DNA of 17,856 bases from Pseudomonadota bacterium (GTDB taxonomy: Bacteria > Pseudomonadota > Gammaproteobacteria > Burkholderiales > Thiobacillaceae). A model generated the notes under the pieces. That model had not been told where the DNA came from, ran no database searches, and worked only from the letters and a program-made list of their open reading frames with translations. The translations under genes and the position numbers were made by a program. Shown here in pieces: positions 8,128 to 17,856 of this stretch. The stretch is from assembly GCA_021821425.1 (NCBI GenBank), contig JAKACL010000018.1, positions 1-17,856 of the forward strand. Reading direction: 5' to 3'. The stretch's first letter is position 1; each line of letters begins with the position of its first letter.

Positions 8128-8706
8128 ATGTCCCAGGAATTATTCGCCGCCGCCCAGTCGGGCGATGCCGCACAGATCAAGAAACTGCTGGAGGCCGGCG
8201 CCGATCACGCCGCCGTCGACGAGGCCGGCGAAACCGCGCTGATGCACGCCGCCCATGGCGGCCACGTTGCTGCGGTGCAGGTGCTGATCGCCGCCGGTGC
8301 CGACGTCAACGCGCAGTCGCCGCAGGGCTGGACCGCACTCGCCAAGGCCGCCTACAACGGCGAGACCGAGCGTGGCTACGTGGAAGTCATCGAAGTGTTA
8401 CACGAAGCGGGTGCCGCGCTCGACGCGCGCATCTTCTTCGGCATCACGCCGCTGATGCTGGCCGCCGGCGGCGGCGACGCCCCGGTGGTGGAATGGCTGA
8501 TCAACAACGGCGCCGACGTGCTCGCCACCAACGAGGGCGGCCGCACCGCGCGCCTGATGGCGAACGACAAGTTCTACGTGGACGTGATCAACCTGTTGAC
8601 CGAAGCCGAGCGCCAGCTCGGCGTGCAGGAAGACGGCTCGTGCTCGTCGACCAAGAGCGTGGTGAAGCCGCAGGTGGTCAATCTGATGAAGCCGACCACG
8701 CATTAA
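8128..8706 (+). CDS. Ankyrin-repeat protein
   Basis: A 192-residue protein made of about five ankyrin repeats: residues 3-31 ([22 protein letters not shown]), 34-64 ([27 protein letters not shown]), 67-101, 104-134 ([25 protein letters not shown]) and an imperfect last one to about 160. The third repeat carries a short insertion, [11 protein letters not shown] polar tail (about 161-192) contains CSS and a run ending KPTTH. No signal peptide or membrane segment is seen, so it is probably cytoplasmic and acts by protein binding; the partner is unknown. AGGAG six bases before the ATG at 8128 fixes the start. It is divergent from the DUF255 gene and convergent with the ParA gene. Confidence 0.9.
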
Positions 8707-8717
8707 ACCGGTTTGGG

Positions 8718-8732
8718 CGCGCGCAGCGCGCG
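8718..8732. terminator. GC hairpin between convergent genes, possible terminator
   Basis: CGCGCG-CAG-CGCGCG forms a 6-bp perfect stem in the 31-bp gap between the ankyrin and ParA genes. It is flanked by GTTT (8711-8714) and AAAAC (8733-8737), which could extend the stem around a GGG bulge. The minus-strand side has GAGTTTT before the stem but no U-run after it, so it may slow both polymerases rather than end transcription cleanly. Confidence 0.35.
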
Positions 8733-8737
8733 AAAAC

Positions 8738-9343
8738 TCAAGCCTCCAGCCAGTCGATCAGCCCCTGCCACTGCTCGATATCGCGTTCGGCGATATGCGG
8801 CGGCAAATCAAACAGGCTCTTGCCCTCGAACGCGGCGTTGACGTAATGCTGGGTGTTGCGCAGATGCGCCAGCACCGGCAGATCCTGCTGCGCCATGAAC
8901 TGCTCCAGCGTGACCCCGGCGCGGGTGCGCGGATCGACGCGCATGCCGACCACGGCGACGAAAGCATGCGCCTTGCGCACCGCCTTTTCGGCATGCAGCG
9001 CGGCCAGAAATTCCTGGCTGGCCCGAATGTCGAACAGCGACGGCGCAATCGGCACCACCACCTTGTGCGCGAGCTTCAGCGCACGCTCGAGATTCTTGCC
9101 GTGCAGTCCGGCCGGCGAATCGATCACCAGCCAGTCGCTGTCGCCTTTCTGGCCTTCGCGCAGCAGTTCGATTTCCGGCAGGCCCGCACCGCGTATCGCC
9201 AGCCACTGGGTGGCGGATTTCTGGCGATCAAGGTCCAGCATCGCCACCCGCTTGCCCTGTGAGGCCAGATAGCCGGCGAGGTTGATCGACAGTGTCGACT
9301 TGCCGCTGCCGCCCTTGGGGTTGGCCACCAGAATCACGCGCAT
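8738..9343 (-). CDS. Orphan ParA/Soj-family ATPase (ParF-sized)
   Basis: A 201-residue ParA-type ATPase. The deviant Walker A motif KGGSGKST lies at residues 10-17 (signature lysine K10). LDLDRQKSATQW (about 37-48) is the switch region equivalent to DxDPQ, and WLVIDSPAGL (about 71-80) is the Walker B region. The C-terminal part, including NTQHYVNAAFEGKSLFDLP, is typical of short ParA/ParF proteins. These form nucleotide-dependent dimers on nucleoid DNA and position plasmids, chromosomes or protein cargo. There is no ParB-like partner or parS-like repeat nearby, so the cargo is unknown. GGAGG sits four bases before the ATG. It lies only 30 bp after the end of the ilvD fusion on the same strand and is probably co-transcribed with it. 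Confidence 0.88.
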   Translation of the reverse strand: MRVILVANPKGGSGKSTLSINLAGYLASQGKRVAMLDLDRQKSATQWLAIRGAGLPEIELLREGQKGDSDWLVIDSPAGLHGKNLERALKLAHKVVVPIAPSLFDIRASQEFLAALHAEKAVRKAHAFVAVVGMRVDPRTRAGVTLEQFMAQQDLPVLAHLRNTQHYVNAAFEGKSLFDLPPHIAERDIEQWQGLIDWLEA

Positions 9344-9373: not shown

Positions 9374-12151
9374 TTACAGTGCCTCGACGCTGTACGTCGC
9401 CGCCAGCGTGTGGGTCTCGCCCGGCGCCACGGTGACAACGTTGTCCATCGCATTGGCCGATTCGACGCAGACCATTTCGCGCCAGCCGGCGCCCGACTTG
9501 CCGCGGCCCATGTCGCCCATCTTATCGGCCTTTTCGGACCACGGCGTCCACACGATGGTGGACTGCGAGCCGGTCTTGGCGATGCGGATACGGCGCCTGA
9601 GGCCGGCGTCCTCGATCACGCAGTCGGCCGGCGTATTGACGTAGACGCGGTCGACTTCGCCATTGAATTCAATTACGCCTTGCTGCTTCCTGCGCGCGAA
9701 ATTGTCGACCTTGTCGTGGTAGTCGCAGCCTTCAAGACCTTCGACCTTGACCGTGCCGATATCGCTGATCTGCAGATAGGTGTGCAACGCCTCGCCGATC
9801 TGCACCGGCGAATCGCCCGTGTTGGTGGTGGCGAGCGACATCTCCAGCTTCTCGCCCACCGCCACGGTCAGCGTCAGCCGCGTGGCATGCGGCCATTGCG
9901 CGCGGGTCTGCGCGTTGTCGACGAGCTCAAAGGTGATCTCGGTCTTGGCGTCGTTGCGACGGCGCGTGCCGGTCACGCTCCAGTCCACGGTGCGTGCAAA
10001 GCCGTGCGCCGGGAATGACGCTTCGCTGGCATGCGCGCCGAACCACGGCCAGCAGACCGGCGCGCCGCCGCGGATGGATTTGCCCGGCGCGAATTTGGCG
10101 GCGTCGGACACCCACACCACCGGCGTGTGCTGCGATTTGGGACGGAAGCTGACGACGTGCGCACCCTGCAAACAGATCGTCGCGCGGCCGCCGTGGTTGT
10201 CGATGTCGACGTAGGTGAGGCCGCCGGCGCCCACGCGGAAACCCAGCTGGCCGGGGATGGCAAAGCGCGCCAGCGGGTCGGCGTGCATCTGCGCTTCGGT
10301 CGGGTGTTCGACCTGGCTGACATCGCGCACTGCGCCAAATGCGGCCGAGGTCGTCATTGCGGCATAGGCGCGCAACGCAGGCGACACTACGCGCACGCGG
10401 TTGACCGGCTTCCACGCCTGCGCGCCTTTCGCGTCCATCGCGGCGCGGCGGCGCTCGAGTTCGACATCGCTCACGGCAACGTTGATGCTGCGATTGGGGA
10501 TGTCGATCTCGATCGTGTCGCCTTCCTCGACCAGGCCGATGTTGCCGCCTTCAGCCGCTTCCGGCGAGGCGTGGCCGATCGACAGGCCCGAGGTGCCGCC
10601 GGAGAAACGACCGTCGGTGATCAAGGCGCAGGCCTTGCCGAGGCCCTTGGATTTCAGGTACGAGGTCGGGTACAGCATTTCCTGCATGCCGGGGCCGCCG
10701 CGCGGGCCTTCGTAGCGAATCACGACGACGTCGCCGGGAACGATGCGGTCGCCGAGGATGGCCTCGACCGCGGCATCCTGCGATTCGAATACGCGCGCAG
10801 GTCCCGAGAACTTCCAGATGCTCTCGTCGACGCCGGCCGTCTTGACGATGCAGCCGTCCAGCGCGAGGTTGCCGTACAGCACCGCCAGCCCACCCTCCTT
10901 CGAGTAGGCGTGCTCGAGGTCGTGGATGCAGCCGTTGACGCGGTCGTCGTCGAGCTTGGCGAAGCGGCGGTCCTGCGAGAACGCCGTTTGCGTCGGCACG
11001 CCGCCGGGCGCGGCCCGGTAGTAGTCGCGCACGTCCTTGTCGCTGGTGCGGCGAATGTCGTAGACGTCGATCTGCTCGCCCAGCGACTTCATCAGCACGG
11101 TCGGCACCTCGCGGTGGATCAGGCCGCCGCGCTCGAGCTCGCCGAGGATCGCCATCACGCCGCCGGCGCGGTGCACGTCTTCCATGTGGTAGGTCTGGAT
11201 CGACGGCGCGACCTTCGACAGATGCGGCACGCGGCGGCTCATGCGGTCGATGTCCTGCATCGTGAAATCGACGCCCGCTTCATGCGCGGCGGCCAGCAGA
11301 TGCAGCACGGTATTGGTCGAGCCGCCCATCGCGATATCGAGCGCGATCGCGTTCTCGAACGCGTCGAAGCTGGCGATCGCGCGTGGCAGCACGCGGGTGT
11401 CGCCGTCGTCGTAATAGCGGCGCGCGTTCTTCACGATCAGGCGGCCGGCGGCAAGGAACAGGTTCCGCCGGTCGGCGTGGGTCGCGAGCAGCGAGCCGTT
11501 GCCGGGCAGACTTAAGCCCAGCGCTTCGGTCAGACAGTTCATCGAGTTGGCGGTGAACATGCCGGAGCACGAGCCACAGGTCGGGCAGGCCGAGCGTTCG
11601 AGCTGGTCGACCTTCTCGTCGCTGAATTTCGCATCGGCCGCCGACACCATGGCGTCGACCAGGTCGAGCTTGATGGTCTTGGATTCCCACACCACCTTGC
11701 CCGCTTCCATCGGCCCGCCGGACACGAATACCGTCGGGATGTTCAGGCGCAGCGCGGCGTTGAGCATCCCCGGCGTGATCTTGTCGCAGTTGGAAATGCA
11801 CACCAGCGCGTCGGCGCAGTGCGCGTTGACCATATACTCGACCGAGTCGGCGATCAGGTCGCGGCTCGGCAGCGAATACAGCATGCCGCCGTGGCCCATC
11901 GCAATGCCGTCGTCGACCGCGATGGTGTTGAATTCCTTCGCCACGCCGCCCGCCGCCTCGATCTCGCGCGCCACCAGCTGGCCCATGTCCTTCAGGTGCA
12001 CATGCCCCGGCACGAACTGGGTGAACGAGTTGGCAATCGCGATGATGGGCTTGTTGAAGTCGCCATCCTTCATGCCGGTGGCGCGCCACAATGCGCGGGC
12101 TCCGGCCATGTTGCGGCCGCGGGTGGTGGTCCAGGAACGGTAGTCGGGCAT
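9374..12151 (-). CDS. ilvD: Fusion: dihydroxy-acid dehydratase (IlvD) + D-hexose-6-phosphate mutarotase (YeaD-like)
   Basis: A single 925-residue frame. Residues 1 to about 616 are a complete dihydroxy-acid dehydratase, the third common enzyme of isoleucine/valine synthesis. It begins [22 protein letters not shown] as in E. coli, has cluster cysteines in SNCDK (C122) and CPTCGSC (C189/C192/C195), the segment [13 protein letters not shown], and the ending [17 protein letters not shown]. From about 622 to 925 follows a full aldose-1-epimerase-fold protein like E. coli YeaD. It has [24 protein letters not shown], the catalytic-His motif FPAHGFAR (about 715), ALHTYLQI and the catalytic-Glu motif VCVESAN (about 895); this family interconverts hexose-6-phosphate anomers. 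Almost no linker separates the parts. The only internal ATG near the junction (10286-10288) has no Shine-Dalgarno sequence. ATG at 12151 is preferred over GTG at 12160 because it gives the family N-terminus. Confidence 0.93.
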
Positions 12152-12246: not shown

Positions 12247-13044
12247 ATGCTCGTTCATCCGCAATTCGATCCCGTCGCCCTGCAACTCGGCCCTGTCGCC
12301 ATCCACTGGTACGGCCTGATGTATTTGCTGGCGTTTGCCCAGGTCATCCTGCTCGGGCGCTGGTGCATCGCGCACCGGCCGTGGTCGGGGTGGACGCAGA
12401 AAATGCTCGACGACGCCCTCTTCTACGGTGTGCTCGGCGTCATCGCCGGCGGCCGGCTCGGCTATGTGATCTTCTACAAGCCGATGGACTACCTGGCCAA
12501 CCCGCTCGACATCATCAAATTGTGGGAAGGCGGCATGAGTTTTCACGGCGGCTTTCTCGGCGTCATCATCGCGATGGCGCTGTTCGCCCACCGCCACAAG
12601 CTGCGCTGGCTCGCCGTCACCGACTTCATCGCCCCGCTGGTGCCGCTGGGGCTCGCCGCCGGGCGGCTCGGCAACTTCATCAACGGCGAGCTGTGGGGCC
12701 GCGCCACCGACCTGCCGTGGGGCATGGTCTTCCCGCAGGCGGCGGACGGCATCGCGCGCCACCCCTCGCAGCTGTACCAGTTCGCCGGCGAAGGTCTGCT
12801 GCTGTTCGTCATCCTGTGGTGGTATTCCAGCAAGCCGCGCCCGGTTGGCGCGATTTCCGGCGTGTTCCTGATCGGCTACGGAGCGTTCCGCTTTCTGGCC
12901 GAATTCACCCGCGAACCCGACAGCTTCCTTGGCCTCTTGGGGCTGGGGCTCTCCATGGGGCAATGGCTGTCGCTGCCGATGATCGTCGCCGGCATCCTCA
13001 TGCTGCGCTGGGCGCAGCGTCAACCCACACCAGGGCAGGCATGA
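12247..13044 (+). CDS. lgt: Prolipoprotein diacylglyceryl transferase Lgt
   Basis: A 265-residue inner-membrane enzyme that transfers a diacylglyceryl group from phosphatidylglycerol to the lipobox cysteine of prolipoproteins, the first step of lipoprotein maturation. Seven or so membrane helices are visible. Key motifs are [12 protein letters not shown] (19-30), [12 protein letters not shown] with the essential histidine H100 (H103 in E. coli), and the Lgt signature [14 protein letters not shown] (139-152). HPSQLYQ follows at about 176-182, with [16 protein letters not shown] later. Length and start match the family. There is no recognisable ribosome-binding site before the ATG. The stop overlaps the next gene's ATG (ATGA at 13041-13044), so the two are translationally coupled. 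Confidence 0.96.
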
Positions 13045-13744: not shown

Positions 13745-14482
13745 ATGCGTGTGATTCAATACCGGGGCAGCAGCCGTGTCGAAACGATCAAGGAACAGGT
13801 TGGGGCCAAGGGTTATGCCAACGGCTTTGAAGGATTGATTGGTTTCATCAATGGCCTGCTGCCATCCAACGAGGTGATCGAGCAGGCGTTACGTAAGACT
13901 GTACCCATGTATCCTGAATTGGCAGTACGAGAGTTGGTGGCGAATGCGCTTATCCACCAAGACTTCTTTATTACTGGTTCCGGTCCGATGGTGGAGATAT
14001 TCGACGACCGTATCGAGATCACCAATCCTGGTCTGCCTCTCGTGGACACGCAGCGATTCGTTGACACCCCACCCAAATCGCGTAATGAGGCACTGGCCTC
14101 TCTGCTACGTCGGGTTGGCATCTGCGAGGAACGTGGCAGTGGGGTCGACAAGGTGGTTTTCCAGACCGAGTATTACCAGTTGCCGGCGCCCAAGTTTGAA
14201 AGCACCGTCGACTCGGTCCGAGCGGTACTGTTCGCGCCCCGCCCTTTGAACCGAATGGACAAAGCGGATCGTGTCCGAACCTGTTATCTCCATGCCTGTT
14301 TGAAGTATGTGAACGGGGAATACATGACCAACACCTCTCTGCGGGAGCGGTTAGGAATTGAGCCCGCCAACAAATCCATGGTGTCCCGTTATATTCGGGA
14401 AGCTCTTGAGGATGACGCAATCAAGCTCCACGACGAAGCAGCCGCGATCAAACTCAGAAAGTATGTGCCATTCTGGGTGTAA
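13745..14482 (+). pseudogene. 5'-truncated AlbA/GHKL-ATPase family gene (COG2865-like)
   Basis: The 245-residue frame matches the C-terminal half of the 'ATP-binding/putative DNA-binding' family whose full-length members (about 450-550 residues) start with an AlbA_2 domain. What remains is the GHKL-type ATPase part: MYPELAVRELVANALIHQDF (about 55-74, N-box), GPMVEIFDDRIEITNPG (about 79-95) and CEERGSGVDKVVFQTEYYQLP. A winged-helix-like end follows, with TNTSLRERLG and KSMVSRYIREALEDD. The whole AlbA_2 domain is missing: an in-frame TGA lies at 13706-13708, and the 12 codons between it and the first ATG are not family-like. No ribosome-binding site precedes the ATG. Codon use is less GC-biased than in neighbours, suggesting acquired DNA. 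A short protein might still be made, so 'remnant' is an inference. Full-length members often accompany restriction-modification or mobile loci. Confidence 0.75.
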
Positions 14483-15606: not shown

Positions 15607-17856
15607 ATGGAACGACAACGCTGGCTGGACGGGACGCTGTATTCGCCCGACTTCGAACAGGATAGCTGCGGCTTCGGCCTGATTGCGCAGATCGACAATC
15701 AGCCCAGCCATACGCTGGTGCGGAACGCGATCGGCTCGCTGGCGTGCATGACGCACCGCGGCGCGATCGCCGCCGACGGATTGTCGGGCGACGGCTGCGG
15801 CCTGTTGTTCAAGAAGCCGGATGCCTTCCTGCGCGCGGTGGCGGACGAAGCCGGCTTTGCGCTGGGGGAACTGTATGCCGCCGGCCTGCTGTTCCTGTCG
15901 CGCGATGCGGCACCGCAGGCGCATGCGCGCACCACGCTGAAAACCGAACTCGAGGCGCAGGGCCTGACGGTCGCCGGCTTCCGCCTGGTGCCGACCGATT
16001 CATCGGTGTGCGGCGAATCCGCGCTGGCCTCGTTGCCGCATATCGAAATGGTGTTCGTCAACGCGGCCACGGATATTAACGACGCGGGCTTGAGCGAGGA
16101 CGATTTCGAACGCAAGCTCTACATCGCGCGCCGCCGCGCCGAAAAGGCGCTGGAAGCGAGCGACCCGGTGTTCTACCTGCCGACGCTGTCGTGCCGCGTG
16201 ATCAGCTACAAGGGCCTGGTGATGCCGGACAACCTGCCGGTGTTCTACCCCGACCTCAACGACGCGCGCTTCGCGTCGAGCCTGGTCGTGTTCCACCAGC
16301 GCTTCTCCACCAACACCTGGCCGCAGTGGCGGCTGGCGCAGCCGTTCCGTTACCTCGCGCACAACGGCGAGATCAACACGGTGCAGGGCAACCGCAACTG
16401 GAGCCGCGCCCGCGAACAGAAGTTCGAAACCCCGCTGATCCCGAACATGGACGACATCCGTCCCATTGTAGGCACCAAGGGTTCCGATTCGATGAGCCTC
16501 GACAATATGGTCGAGGGTCTGGTGATGGGCGGCGCGGGCCTGTTCCGCGCGCTGCGCCTGGTGATTCCGCCGGCCTGGCAGAACGTCGAATCCATGGATC
16601 CCGACATCCGCGCCTTCTACGAATACAACTCGATGCACATGGAGCCGTGGGACGGCCCCGCCGGCGTGGTGCTGACCGACGGCCGCTACGCGGTCTGCAC
16701 GCTCGACCGCAACGGCCTGCGGCCCGCGCGCTGGGTGCTGACCAAGGACCGCATCCTCACCATCGCCTCCGAAGTCGGCGTGTGGCAGATCGATCCGGCG
16801 AACGTGGAGCGCAAGGGCCGCGTCAAGCCCGGCCAGATGATCGCCGCCGACCTGAACACCGGCCGTTTGCTGATGCCGGAAGACATCGACAACGAACTGA
16901 AGGGCGCGCAGCCCTACCGCGAATGGCTGAAGGCCAGCGCGGTCAAGCTGGAGCTGTCGATCAACCAGGACGCCGACCTGCCGGTGATGGACGCGGCGAG
17001 CCTGCTGACGCACCAGAAGCTCTTCAACGTCAGCTTCGAGGAACGCGACCAGATCATCCGCGTGCTCGCCGAGGACGGCGCCGAGGCGATCGGCTCGATG
17101 GGCGACGACACGCCGATGGCGGTGCTGTCCCAGAAAGTGCGCTCGCCCTTCGACTACCTGCGCCAGCAGTTCGCCCAGGTCACCAACCCGCCGATCGACC
17201 CGATCCGCGAGGCGATCGTGATGTCGCTCAACACCAGCTTCGGCCCCGAGCGCAACCTGTTCGAGGAAACCGCGGCGCACGCGCACCGGGTCGAAGTGCA
17301 CACCCCGCTGCTGTCGAAGGAGGCCTTCGACAAGCTGCTGAACCTGAACGACCCGGCGTTTGCCCATGTCGTGCTCGACCTGCATTACGACCCGGCGGCA
17401 ACCACGCTGGAAGCCGCGATCCGGGCGCTGACCGCGCGCGCCGTCGACGCCGTGCGCAAAGGCAAGGTCATCCTCGTCCTGTCCGACCGCAACATCGCCC
17501 GCGATCGCCTGCCGATCCACGCGCTGTTCGCCGTGGGCAGCGTGCACCATGCGCTGATCGCCGCCGGCCTGCGCTGCAACGCCAACATCGTGGTCGAAAC
17601 CGGCACCGTGCGCGACCCGCACCACTATGCCTGCCTGATCGGCTACGGTGCGACCGCGATCTATCCCTACCTCGCCTATCAGGTGATTGGCGAATTCGTG
17701 AAGACCGGCGAGATCAAGCCCGGCCTCGACAAGGCGCTGGGCAACTTCCGCAAGGGCATGGACAAGGGCCTGTACAAGGTGCTGTCCAAGATGGGCATTT
17801 CGCTGGTGGCCAGCTACCGCGGCGCCCAGCTGTTCGAGGGCGTGGGCCTGCACGAA
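15607..17856 (+). CDS. gltB: Glutamate synthase (NADPH/ferredoxin) large subunit GltB (N-terminal 750 residues)
   Basis: The first half of the roughly 1,500-residue GOGAT large subunit, which makes two glutamates from glutamine and 2-oxoglutarate. The frame runs open to the window edge. A 20-residue propeptide precedes the N-terminal nucleophile C21 (DSCGFGLIAQ), which must be exposed by cleavage. The class II glutamine amidotransferase domain (21 to about 440) shows THRGAIAADGLSGDGCGLL, FHQRFSTNTWPQW, PFRYLAHNGEINTVQGNRNW and LDRNGLRPARW. The central domain (about 490 onward) has SFGPERNLFEE, ILVLSDRNI, HHALIAAGLRCNANIVVETGTVRDPHHYACLIGYGATAIYPYL and, near the edge, LYKVLSKMGISLVASYRGAQLFE at the start of the FMN-binding synthase domain. 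GGA five bases before the ATG is a modest ribosome-binding site. The partner gltD is expected beyond the window. Confidence 0.96.
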   Translation, partial: MERQRWLDGTLYSPDFEQDSCGFGLIAQIDNQPSHTLVRNAIGSLACMTHRGAIAADGLSGDGCGLLFKKPDAFLRAVADEAGFALGELYAAGLLFLSRDAAPQAHARTTLKTELEAQGLTVAGFRLVPTDSSVCGESALASLPHIEMVFVNAATDINDAGLSEDDFERKLYIARRRAEKALEASDPVFYLPTLSCRVISYKGLVMPDNLPVFYPDLNDARFASSLVVFHQRFSTNTWPQWRLAQPFRYLAHNGEINTVQGNRNWSRAREQKFETPLIPNMDDIRPIVGTKGSDSMSLDNMVEGLVMGGAGLFRALRLVIPPAWQNVESMDPDIRAFYEYNSMHMEPWDGPAGVVLTDGRYAVCTLDRNGLRPARWVLTKDRILTIASEVGVWQIDPANVERKGRVKPGQMIAADLNTGRLLMPEDIDNELKGAQPYREWLKASAVKLELSINQDADLPVMDAASLLTHQKLFNVSFEERDQIIRVLAEDGAEAIGSMGDDTPMAVLSQKVRSPFDYLRQQFAQVTNPPIDPIREAIVMSLNTSFGPERNLFEETAAHAHRVEVHTPLLSKEAFDKLLNLNDPAFAHVVLDLHYDPAATTLEAAIRALTARAVDAVRKGKVILVLSDRNIARDRLPIHALFAVGSVHHALIAAGLRCNANIVVETGTVRDPHHYACLIGYGATAIYPYLAYQVIGEFVKTGEIKPGLDKALGNFRKGMDKGLYKVLSKMGISLVASYRGAQLFEGVGLHE

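Follow-up and report, generated by a model that had tools for sequence, protein, structure and literature searches.

A hexose-6-phosphate mutarotase probably fused to dihydroxy-acid dehydratase early in Thiobacillus

What brings a dihydroxy-acid dehydratase (DHAD, IlvD) and a hexose-6-phosphate mutarotase together in a single gene? We know of no substrate common to the two reactions and of no metabolic link between these housekeeping enzymes. The question is raised by a 17,856-nucleotide stretch of contig JAKACL010000018.1 (hereafter, the window), for which the original prediction was an in-frame IlvD-mutarotase fusion lacking any stop or frameshift at the junction. This prediction holds: positions 12151..9374 on the minus strand form a single uninterrupted frame of 925 codons plus stop, with a computed product of 99.5 kDa, and the same join is present in many relatives. 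The protein consists of a complete E. coli-type IlvD, a linker and a complete YeaD-type hexose-6-phosphate mutarotase, in this order, and contains three Pfam domains, all scoring far over the cut-off: PF00920 (residues 34-359), PF24877 (408-607) and PF01263 (650-920). On the minus strand of the window, the E. coli-type dihydroxy-acid dehydratase half (residues 1-612) occupies 10316..12151, the linker (residues 613-629) 10265..10315, and the mutarotase half (residues 630-925 and the stop codon at 9374-9376) 9374..10264. The join had been put at about five residues; however, IlvD homology stops at approximately residues 612-615 and mutarotase homology starts at approximately 629-635, so that the linker comprises about 13-17 residues.

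The fusion gene is flanked by lgt, the divergent upstream neighbour (12247..13044, plus strand; PF01790, 281.4 bits), and, directly downstream, by a gene for a ParA-like ATPase with CbiA/ParA Pfam matches (8738..9343, minus strand). Two other ORFs lie on the plus strand. The one at 13745-14482 has HATPase_c_4 (RecG C-terminal-like) as its sole domain match and could be what is left of a larger regulator gene, and the one at 15607-17856, which runs past the window end, is presumably GltB, the large subunit of glutamate synthase.

A database search with residues 540-925 as the query yielded, as the best 98 hits, proteins 70-95% identical to this part, mostly from the sulfur-oxidising genus Thiobacillus where the source was named. 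Of these, 93 are at least 840 amino acids long, and all 93 list the same three Pfam domains; these 93 long database clusters and the window protein make up the set of 94 fused sequences used for the analysis of conservation.

The N-terminal half matches NF009103 with 1176.6 bits against a cut-off of 710 (model positions 1-615 of 616) and TIGR00110 with 832.4 bits against a cut-off of 618.15 (model positions 2-542 of 543). The NCBIfam equivalog match across residues 1-615 and the presence of both C122 (codon at 11786..11788, minus strand) and C195 (11567..11569, minus strand) bear out the earlier claim of a full-length IlvD with these two cysteines, which, in E. coli numbering, we take to be Fe-S cluster ligands of DHAD. 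Compared to the E. coli-type IlvD (EC 4.2.1.9), the Thiobacillus protein is the same over nearly the full length of NF009103 and TIGR00110 and shares C122 and C195, but has about 310 additional C-terminal residues. A third cysteine, in an N-terminal PC motif, marks the [2Fe-2S] subgroup of DHADs, and glycine at this position is expected for the [4Fe-4S] type. In the 94 fused sequences, this third ligand is absent from the aligned position: the PC-motif cysteine of 6ovt and 6nte aligns with Gly49, which is found in 93 of the 94, with one gap. We considered and rejected 6-phosphogluconate dehydratase (Edd), which would have provided an Entner-Doudoroff link via glucose-6-phosphate; the score against TIGR01196 is 224.1 bits, far below the cut-off of 708.25.

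The C-terminal half accounts for the Aldose_epim (PF01263) match of the window protein, at 163.1 bits against a cut-off of 27, and a structure search places 2hta/2htb and 2ciq/2cir as its nearest solved structures. Four residues align with motifs of 2ciq (all codons on the minus strand): R694 (10070..10072) with the arginine of RGG, R720 of the HGFAR motif (9992..9994) with HGLAR, H790 of the ALHTY motif (9782..9784) with FHTY, and E897 of the CVES motif (9461..9463) with CIEP. We take R694 to bind the substrate or its phosphate, R720 to bind the phosphate, and H790 and E897 to be the catalytic residues. Whereas mutarotases of the YeaD/YMR099C type (EC 5.1.3.15) are usually single-domain proteins of about 300 residues, the Thiobacillus mutarotase hangs on IlvD, without a conserved start of its own. 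According to one account, mutarotases clear anomer bottlenecks, and many have resisted assignment to one substrate or process (PMC5902678).

Nine residues, C122, C195, S517, R694, H716, R720, H790, D834 and E897, are identical in all 94 fused sequences; S517, H716 and D834 were included as presumed active-site residues alongside the six discussed above. Across 32 full-length genes (496 non-independent pairs), the median pairwise dN/dS is 0.130 for the IlvD half (496 pairs in the usable dS range), 0.143 for the linker, taken as residues 613-630 (414 pairs), and 0.206 for the mutarotase half (493 pairs). These ratios indicate purifying selection on all three parts of the gene. The invariance of the active sites and the ratios well below 1 in both halves strengthen the earlier argument that intact active sites speak against decay.

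Within the linker, H616, A620, A624 and P626 are identical in all 94 sequences and the alignment is ungapped, with variation at residue 622 (Ala in 35, Met in 17, Ile in 14, Glu in 11, Val in 5, other residues in the rest). Sequence conservation nearly as strong as that of IlvD, along with the lack of gaps, loosely hints that the linker might be more than a passive joint. AlphaFold model A1 (88 alignment rows) reached a pTM of 0.42 and was poor for IlvD; its Foldseek matches were to DHADs and YeaD, and the rmsd for the IlvD half exceeded 13 Å. Model A2, for which 20 of the 75 rows were IlvDs of about 40% identity, had a pTM of 0.60, with pLDDT below 50 over residues 583-624. The arrangement of the two halves against each other is resolved by neither model. 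A search of viral structures gave weak matches only, the best by E-value having a TM-score of 0.25 (target length) and rmsd of 11.9.

How widespread is the fusion? From a genome scan with the mutarotase part, we took the best 80 of 518 loci; 41 (L001-L041) are of the fused type, two of which are titled as strains rather than metagenome-assembled genomes (MAGs), namely, T. thioparus DSM 505 (L017) and T. denitrificans RG (L032). One locus of this Thiobacillus type, L006 (JAIBEL010000058.1), comes from a MAG whose title reads Rhizobium sp.; this bin is probably mixed or carries the wrong label. An Aldose_epim match was detected in 101 of the 117 genomes of the GTDB family to which genome G001 belongs and, within the genus, in 50 of 56. 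The fused frame, at least 736 codons long, is present in 42 of these 50 genus genomes, and in six more (G060, G074, G076, G080, G091 and G094), the gene breaks off at the edge of a contig, with the frame still open into IlvD or the linker; G060, G080 and G094 were paired with L011, L037 and L024, respectively, by equal frame length. One genome (G104, corresponding to L039 by equal frame length) has an in-frame stop within the IlvD half, at codon 340 of the frame examined, which in this MAG reflects either an assembly error or decay, and in another (G105), the match is an unrelated aldose epimerase. No frame of at least 700 codons was detected in the 51 family genomes outside the genus that have a mutarotase match, and no separate ilvD-mutarotase pair was found among the Thiobacillus genomes examined. 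Six apparently stand-alone Thiobacillus mutarotases (P0121, P0128, P0129, P0132, P0139 and P0145) were rejected as candidates for such a state: all six start inside the IlvD tail, so that a truncated gene call or the end of a contig is the most likely cause, not a split gene.

Of 229 genomes sampled from the class, 80 have a mutarotase match, with frames longer than 600, besides G001, in G202, G284 and G131; the latter two are, by Pfam, fusions with an SLT_2 domain, and the long frame of G202 is probably open upstream sequence because no start-to-stop ORF of at least 300 amino acids covers the mutarotase. In the phylum sample, 59 of 60 genomes have an IlvD match, and above the cut-off, frames longer than 800 occur only in G001 (928) and G226 (948). 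In a survey of the order (150 genomes, 146 with a match), G001 alone, among the matches listed, aligns over residues 1-925 without a stop. Among the 34 mutarotase-bearing genomes in these listed matches (counted by eye), one is fused, and in seven, the mutarotase follows a co-directional ilvD at a distance of at most about 1.2 kb. Our searches of an open-licence library brought up no description of an IlvD-mutarotase fusion; the combination of known enzymes is new, the kind of system is not.

In 36 of the 42 genomes with the fused frame, the fusion is the single PF00920 (ILVD_EDD_N) match; a further match is present in G001, G073, G075 and G081, and the two matches in G100 and G109 may be parts of one gene. 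Likewise, Aldose_epim has a single match in 99 of the 101 family genomes where it was detected and two in G092 and G118, partial matches included. The genomes are largely MAGs, with completeness not given, such that single-copy counts can miss copies. There is mostly no second copy of either enzyme, and the fusion is therefore normally the sole visible source of both activities. Judged from these sequences, one polypeptide probably does both jobs.

The origin of the fusion can be traced in relatives outside the genus, where many genomes carry a divergent lgt followed by ilvD and the mutarotase gene on one strand; lgt beside ilvD (L118, L119, L138, L139 and others) marks the shared locus. In 12 of the 39 non-fused loci L042-L080, the distance from ilvD to the mutarotase alignment downstream of it is at most 200 nt, in 13 it is 440-1366 nt, and in 14 no ilvD was found in the flanking DNA examined. 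The Gallionella-type clade has the two genes adjacent in 12 of 16 rows, and in L067 and L074, they overlap at an ATGA junction. Other genes can intervene: a conserved protein of about 197 residues, presumably Uma2-like, is encoded between ilvD and the mutarotase in L043, L045, L048, L049, L050, L052, L055 and L057, and a ParA gene (8390-9001) in L042. Of the 41 fused loci, 38 have a tblastn match to a ParA-like ATPase near the fusion; given its position between the two genes in L042, gene order has been reshuffled here. Of 20 junctions examined, nine have the ilvD stop in the mutarotase reading frame, about the chance rate, and at seven of these (L139, L117, L119, L120, L144, L060 and L121), this in-frame stop is the only one between the two genes. 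In L139, L117, L119 and L120, the single in-frame stop is 33-36 nt before the mutarotase alignment; the gap is equally short in L138 and L118, but out of frame.

Fused sequences form one clade both in the mutarotase tree (44 rows, support 96/99) and in the ilvD tree (20 rows, SH-aLRT 100); thus, the fusion most likely has a single origin. Of the three explanations originally offered, loss of a stop codon between neighbours is favoured by the adjacent, co-directional genes of relatives, some separated by a single in-frame stop. Comparison of relatives yields the fusion throughout the genus and separate neighbours in many relatives outside it. Relatives that have a stop codon here, which in the original prediction would count against the fusion, occur only outside Thiobacillus, where this is likely the ancestral state; within the genus, no separate pair was found. 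Adjacency first, followed by one fusion, is the simplest reading, likely but not certain: ancestral adjacency is made less certain by the Thiomonas-containing group, which has no ilvD nearby and is the weakly supported sister of the fused clade in the mutarotase tree (90/89), and by adjacency being the minority state across the order.

Several other explanations have to be weighed against a genuine two-enzyme fusion. The named examples come mostly from MAGs, which might suggest that assembly or a frameshift error joined two separate genes; nevertheless, the same join recurs across many independent assemblies, including the two titled as strains, and the linker is under purifying selection, leaving an artefact next to no chance. 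A state in which one half functions and the other is a passenger would fit the higher dN/dS of the mutarotase half and the stop in the IlvD half of L039; it is rendered very improbable by the invariant active sites and low dN/dS in both halves, and by the single Aldose_epim match in nearly all family genomes that have one. The fused frame could also give rise to two proteins, through internal initiation at codon 622 or proteolysis of the linker. The original prediction saw no internal ribosome-binding site, and this is correct for the window: its ATG at residue 622 (10286..10288, minus strand), the sole ATG in frame over residues 600-650 and possibly a relic of the old mutarotase start, has an upstream anti-Shine-Dalgarno energy of -0.2 kcal/mol, compared to -1.5 for GTG608 and -3.1 for GTG640, and no start codon with a good leader was found between residues 600 and 650. 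It does not extend to seven fused loci out of 41, T. thioparus (L017) among them, where an ATG or GTG at codon 622 follows GAGG at -5.9 kcal/mol. The latter value equals the median for the Shine-Dalgarno-like leaders of presumed mutarotase starts in separate genes (29 loci, best ATG chosen), but in-frame positions within ilvD (median -1.8 kcal/mol) also reach -5.9 in 5% of cases. Going by these leaders, a free mutarotase from codon 622 is possible in the seven loci. Genus-wide internal initiation is unlikely because the start codon is missing in most members, with Met622 in only 17 and Val in 5 of the 94 fused sequences, and we regard two separate products as a poor explanation of the locus.

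A functional tether, under which the mutarotase domain and the conserved linker would regulate, stabilise or localise DHAD, is also rather doubtful. The domain might stabilise DHAD or shield its oxygen-labile cluster, the hexose-phosphate level might modulate branched-chain synthesis, coupling the two in an autotroph, or the mutarotase might act on a substrate near the branched-chain pathway. Such a role would account for the four invariant linker residues and for a linker dN/dS near that of IlvD, as well as for the single origin with no clear reversal within the genus. However, the mutarotase catalytic residues match those of hexose-6-phosphate mutarotases without visible change, the linker has no confident structure, relatives manage without a tether, some with other genes in between, and the same mutarotase type has unrelated fusion partners elsewhere.

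We therefore favour, with a probability of roughly 85%, a genuine two-enzyme fusion that would have arisen early in Thiobacillus from neighbouring genes that ran together, with both activities retained and no need for metabolic coupling. As the arrangement in relatives suggests, co-directional ilvD and YeaD-type mutarotase genes would have run together once, through loss of the ilvD stop codon and perhaps of a few flanking codons. Translation from the ilvD start would then yield a single polypeptide. Given the equivalog membership and intact cluster residues, its N-terminal half is predicted to produce the 2-keto acids needed to make valine, isoleucine and pantothenate, and its C-terminal half, given the fold and catalytic residues, to speed the equilibration of alpha- and beta-glucose-6-phosphate. 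Most likely, the fusion would persist through harmlessness and equal co-expression rather than metabolic coupling of the reactions, and yet the conservation of the linker would appear to stand against pure neutrality. Separate-gene states persist in relatives, so the question of function versus gene order is directly testable. The source names of the long fused proteins mostly give the first function only, and with annotation by the IlvD half alone, a reader misses the mutarotase.

Comparable fusions of the same mutarotase type exist. Within the GTDB family of G001, one clade encodes a GNAT-mutarotase fusion, which also has the YeaD-type domain C-terminal but differs in its partner; the mutarotase is 43-47% identical, and there is no ilvD within the stretches fetched. 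Four such proteins were confirmed by Pfam (L091:940-2301, L102:919-2301, L125:5719-7122 on the minus strand and L132:5495-6850), further rows were judged from sequence (L124, L126 and L128-L131), and the ten rows form their own clade in the mutarotase tree (100/100). One further protein, P0101 (545 amino acids, 49% identical to the query part), combines a mutarotase with PF16561, presumably AMPK1_CBM, possibly one more fusion partner. In yeast Gal10 (1z45), a mutarotase is likewise fused to another enzyme, but it is a galactose, not a hexose-6-phosphate, mutarotase, and its partner, UDP-galactose 4-epimerase, belongs to the same pathway. The lytic transglycosylase-mutarotase of the XAC4296 type in Xanthomonadaceae is described as a gene fusion (PMC9143381) and resembles the IlvD fusion in having a mutarotase of the same type C-terminal to a biochemically unrelated enzyme. 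In the lytic transglycosylase fusion proteins scanned here, the partner is SLT_2 with PG_binding_1, unlike in the IlvD fusion; Pfam finds neither domain in the window protein, and given the different partner, the XAC4296-type fusion is a separate event. With three unrelated N-terminal partners, a permissive mutarotase N-terminus and gene order are favoured over pathway logic, and the C-terminal fusions of one mutarotase type to IlvD, GNAT and lytic transglycosylase make a natural series for telling function from gene order.
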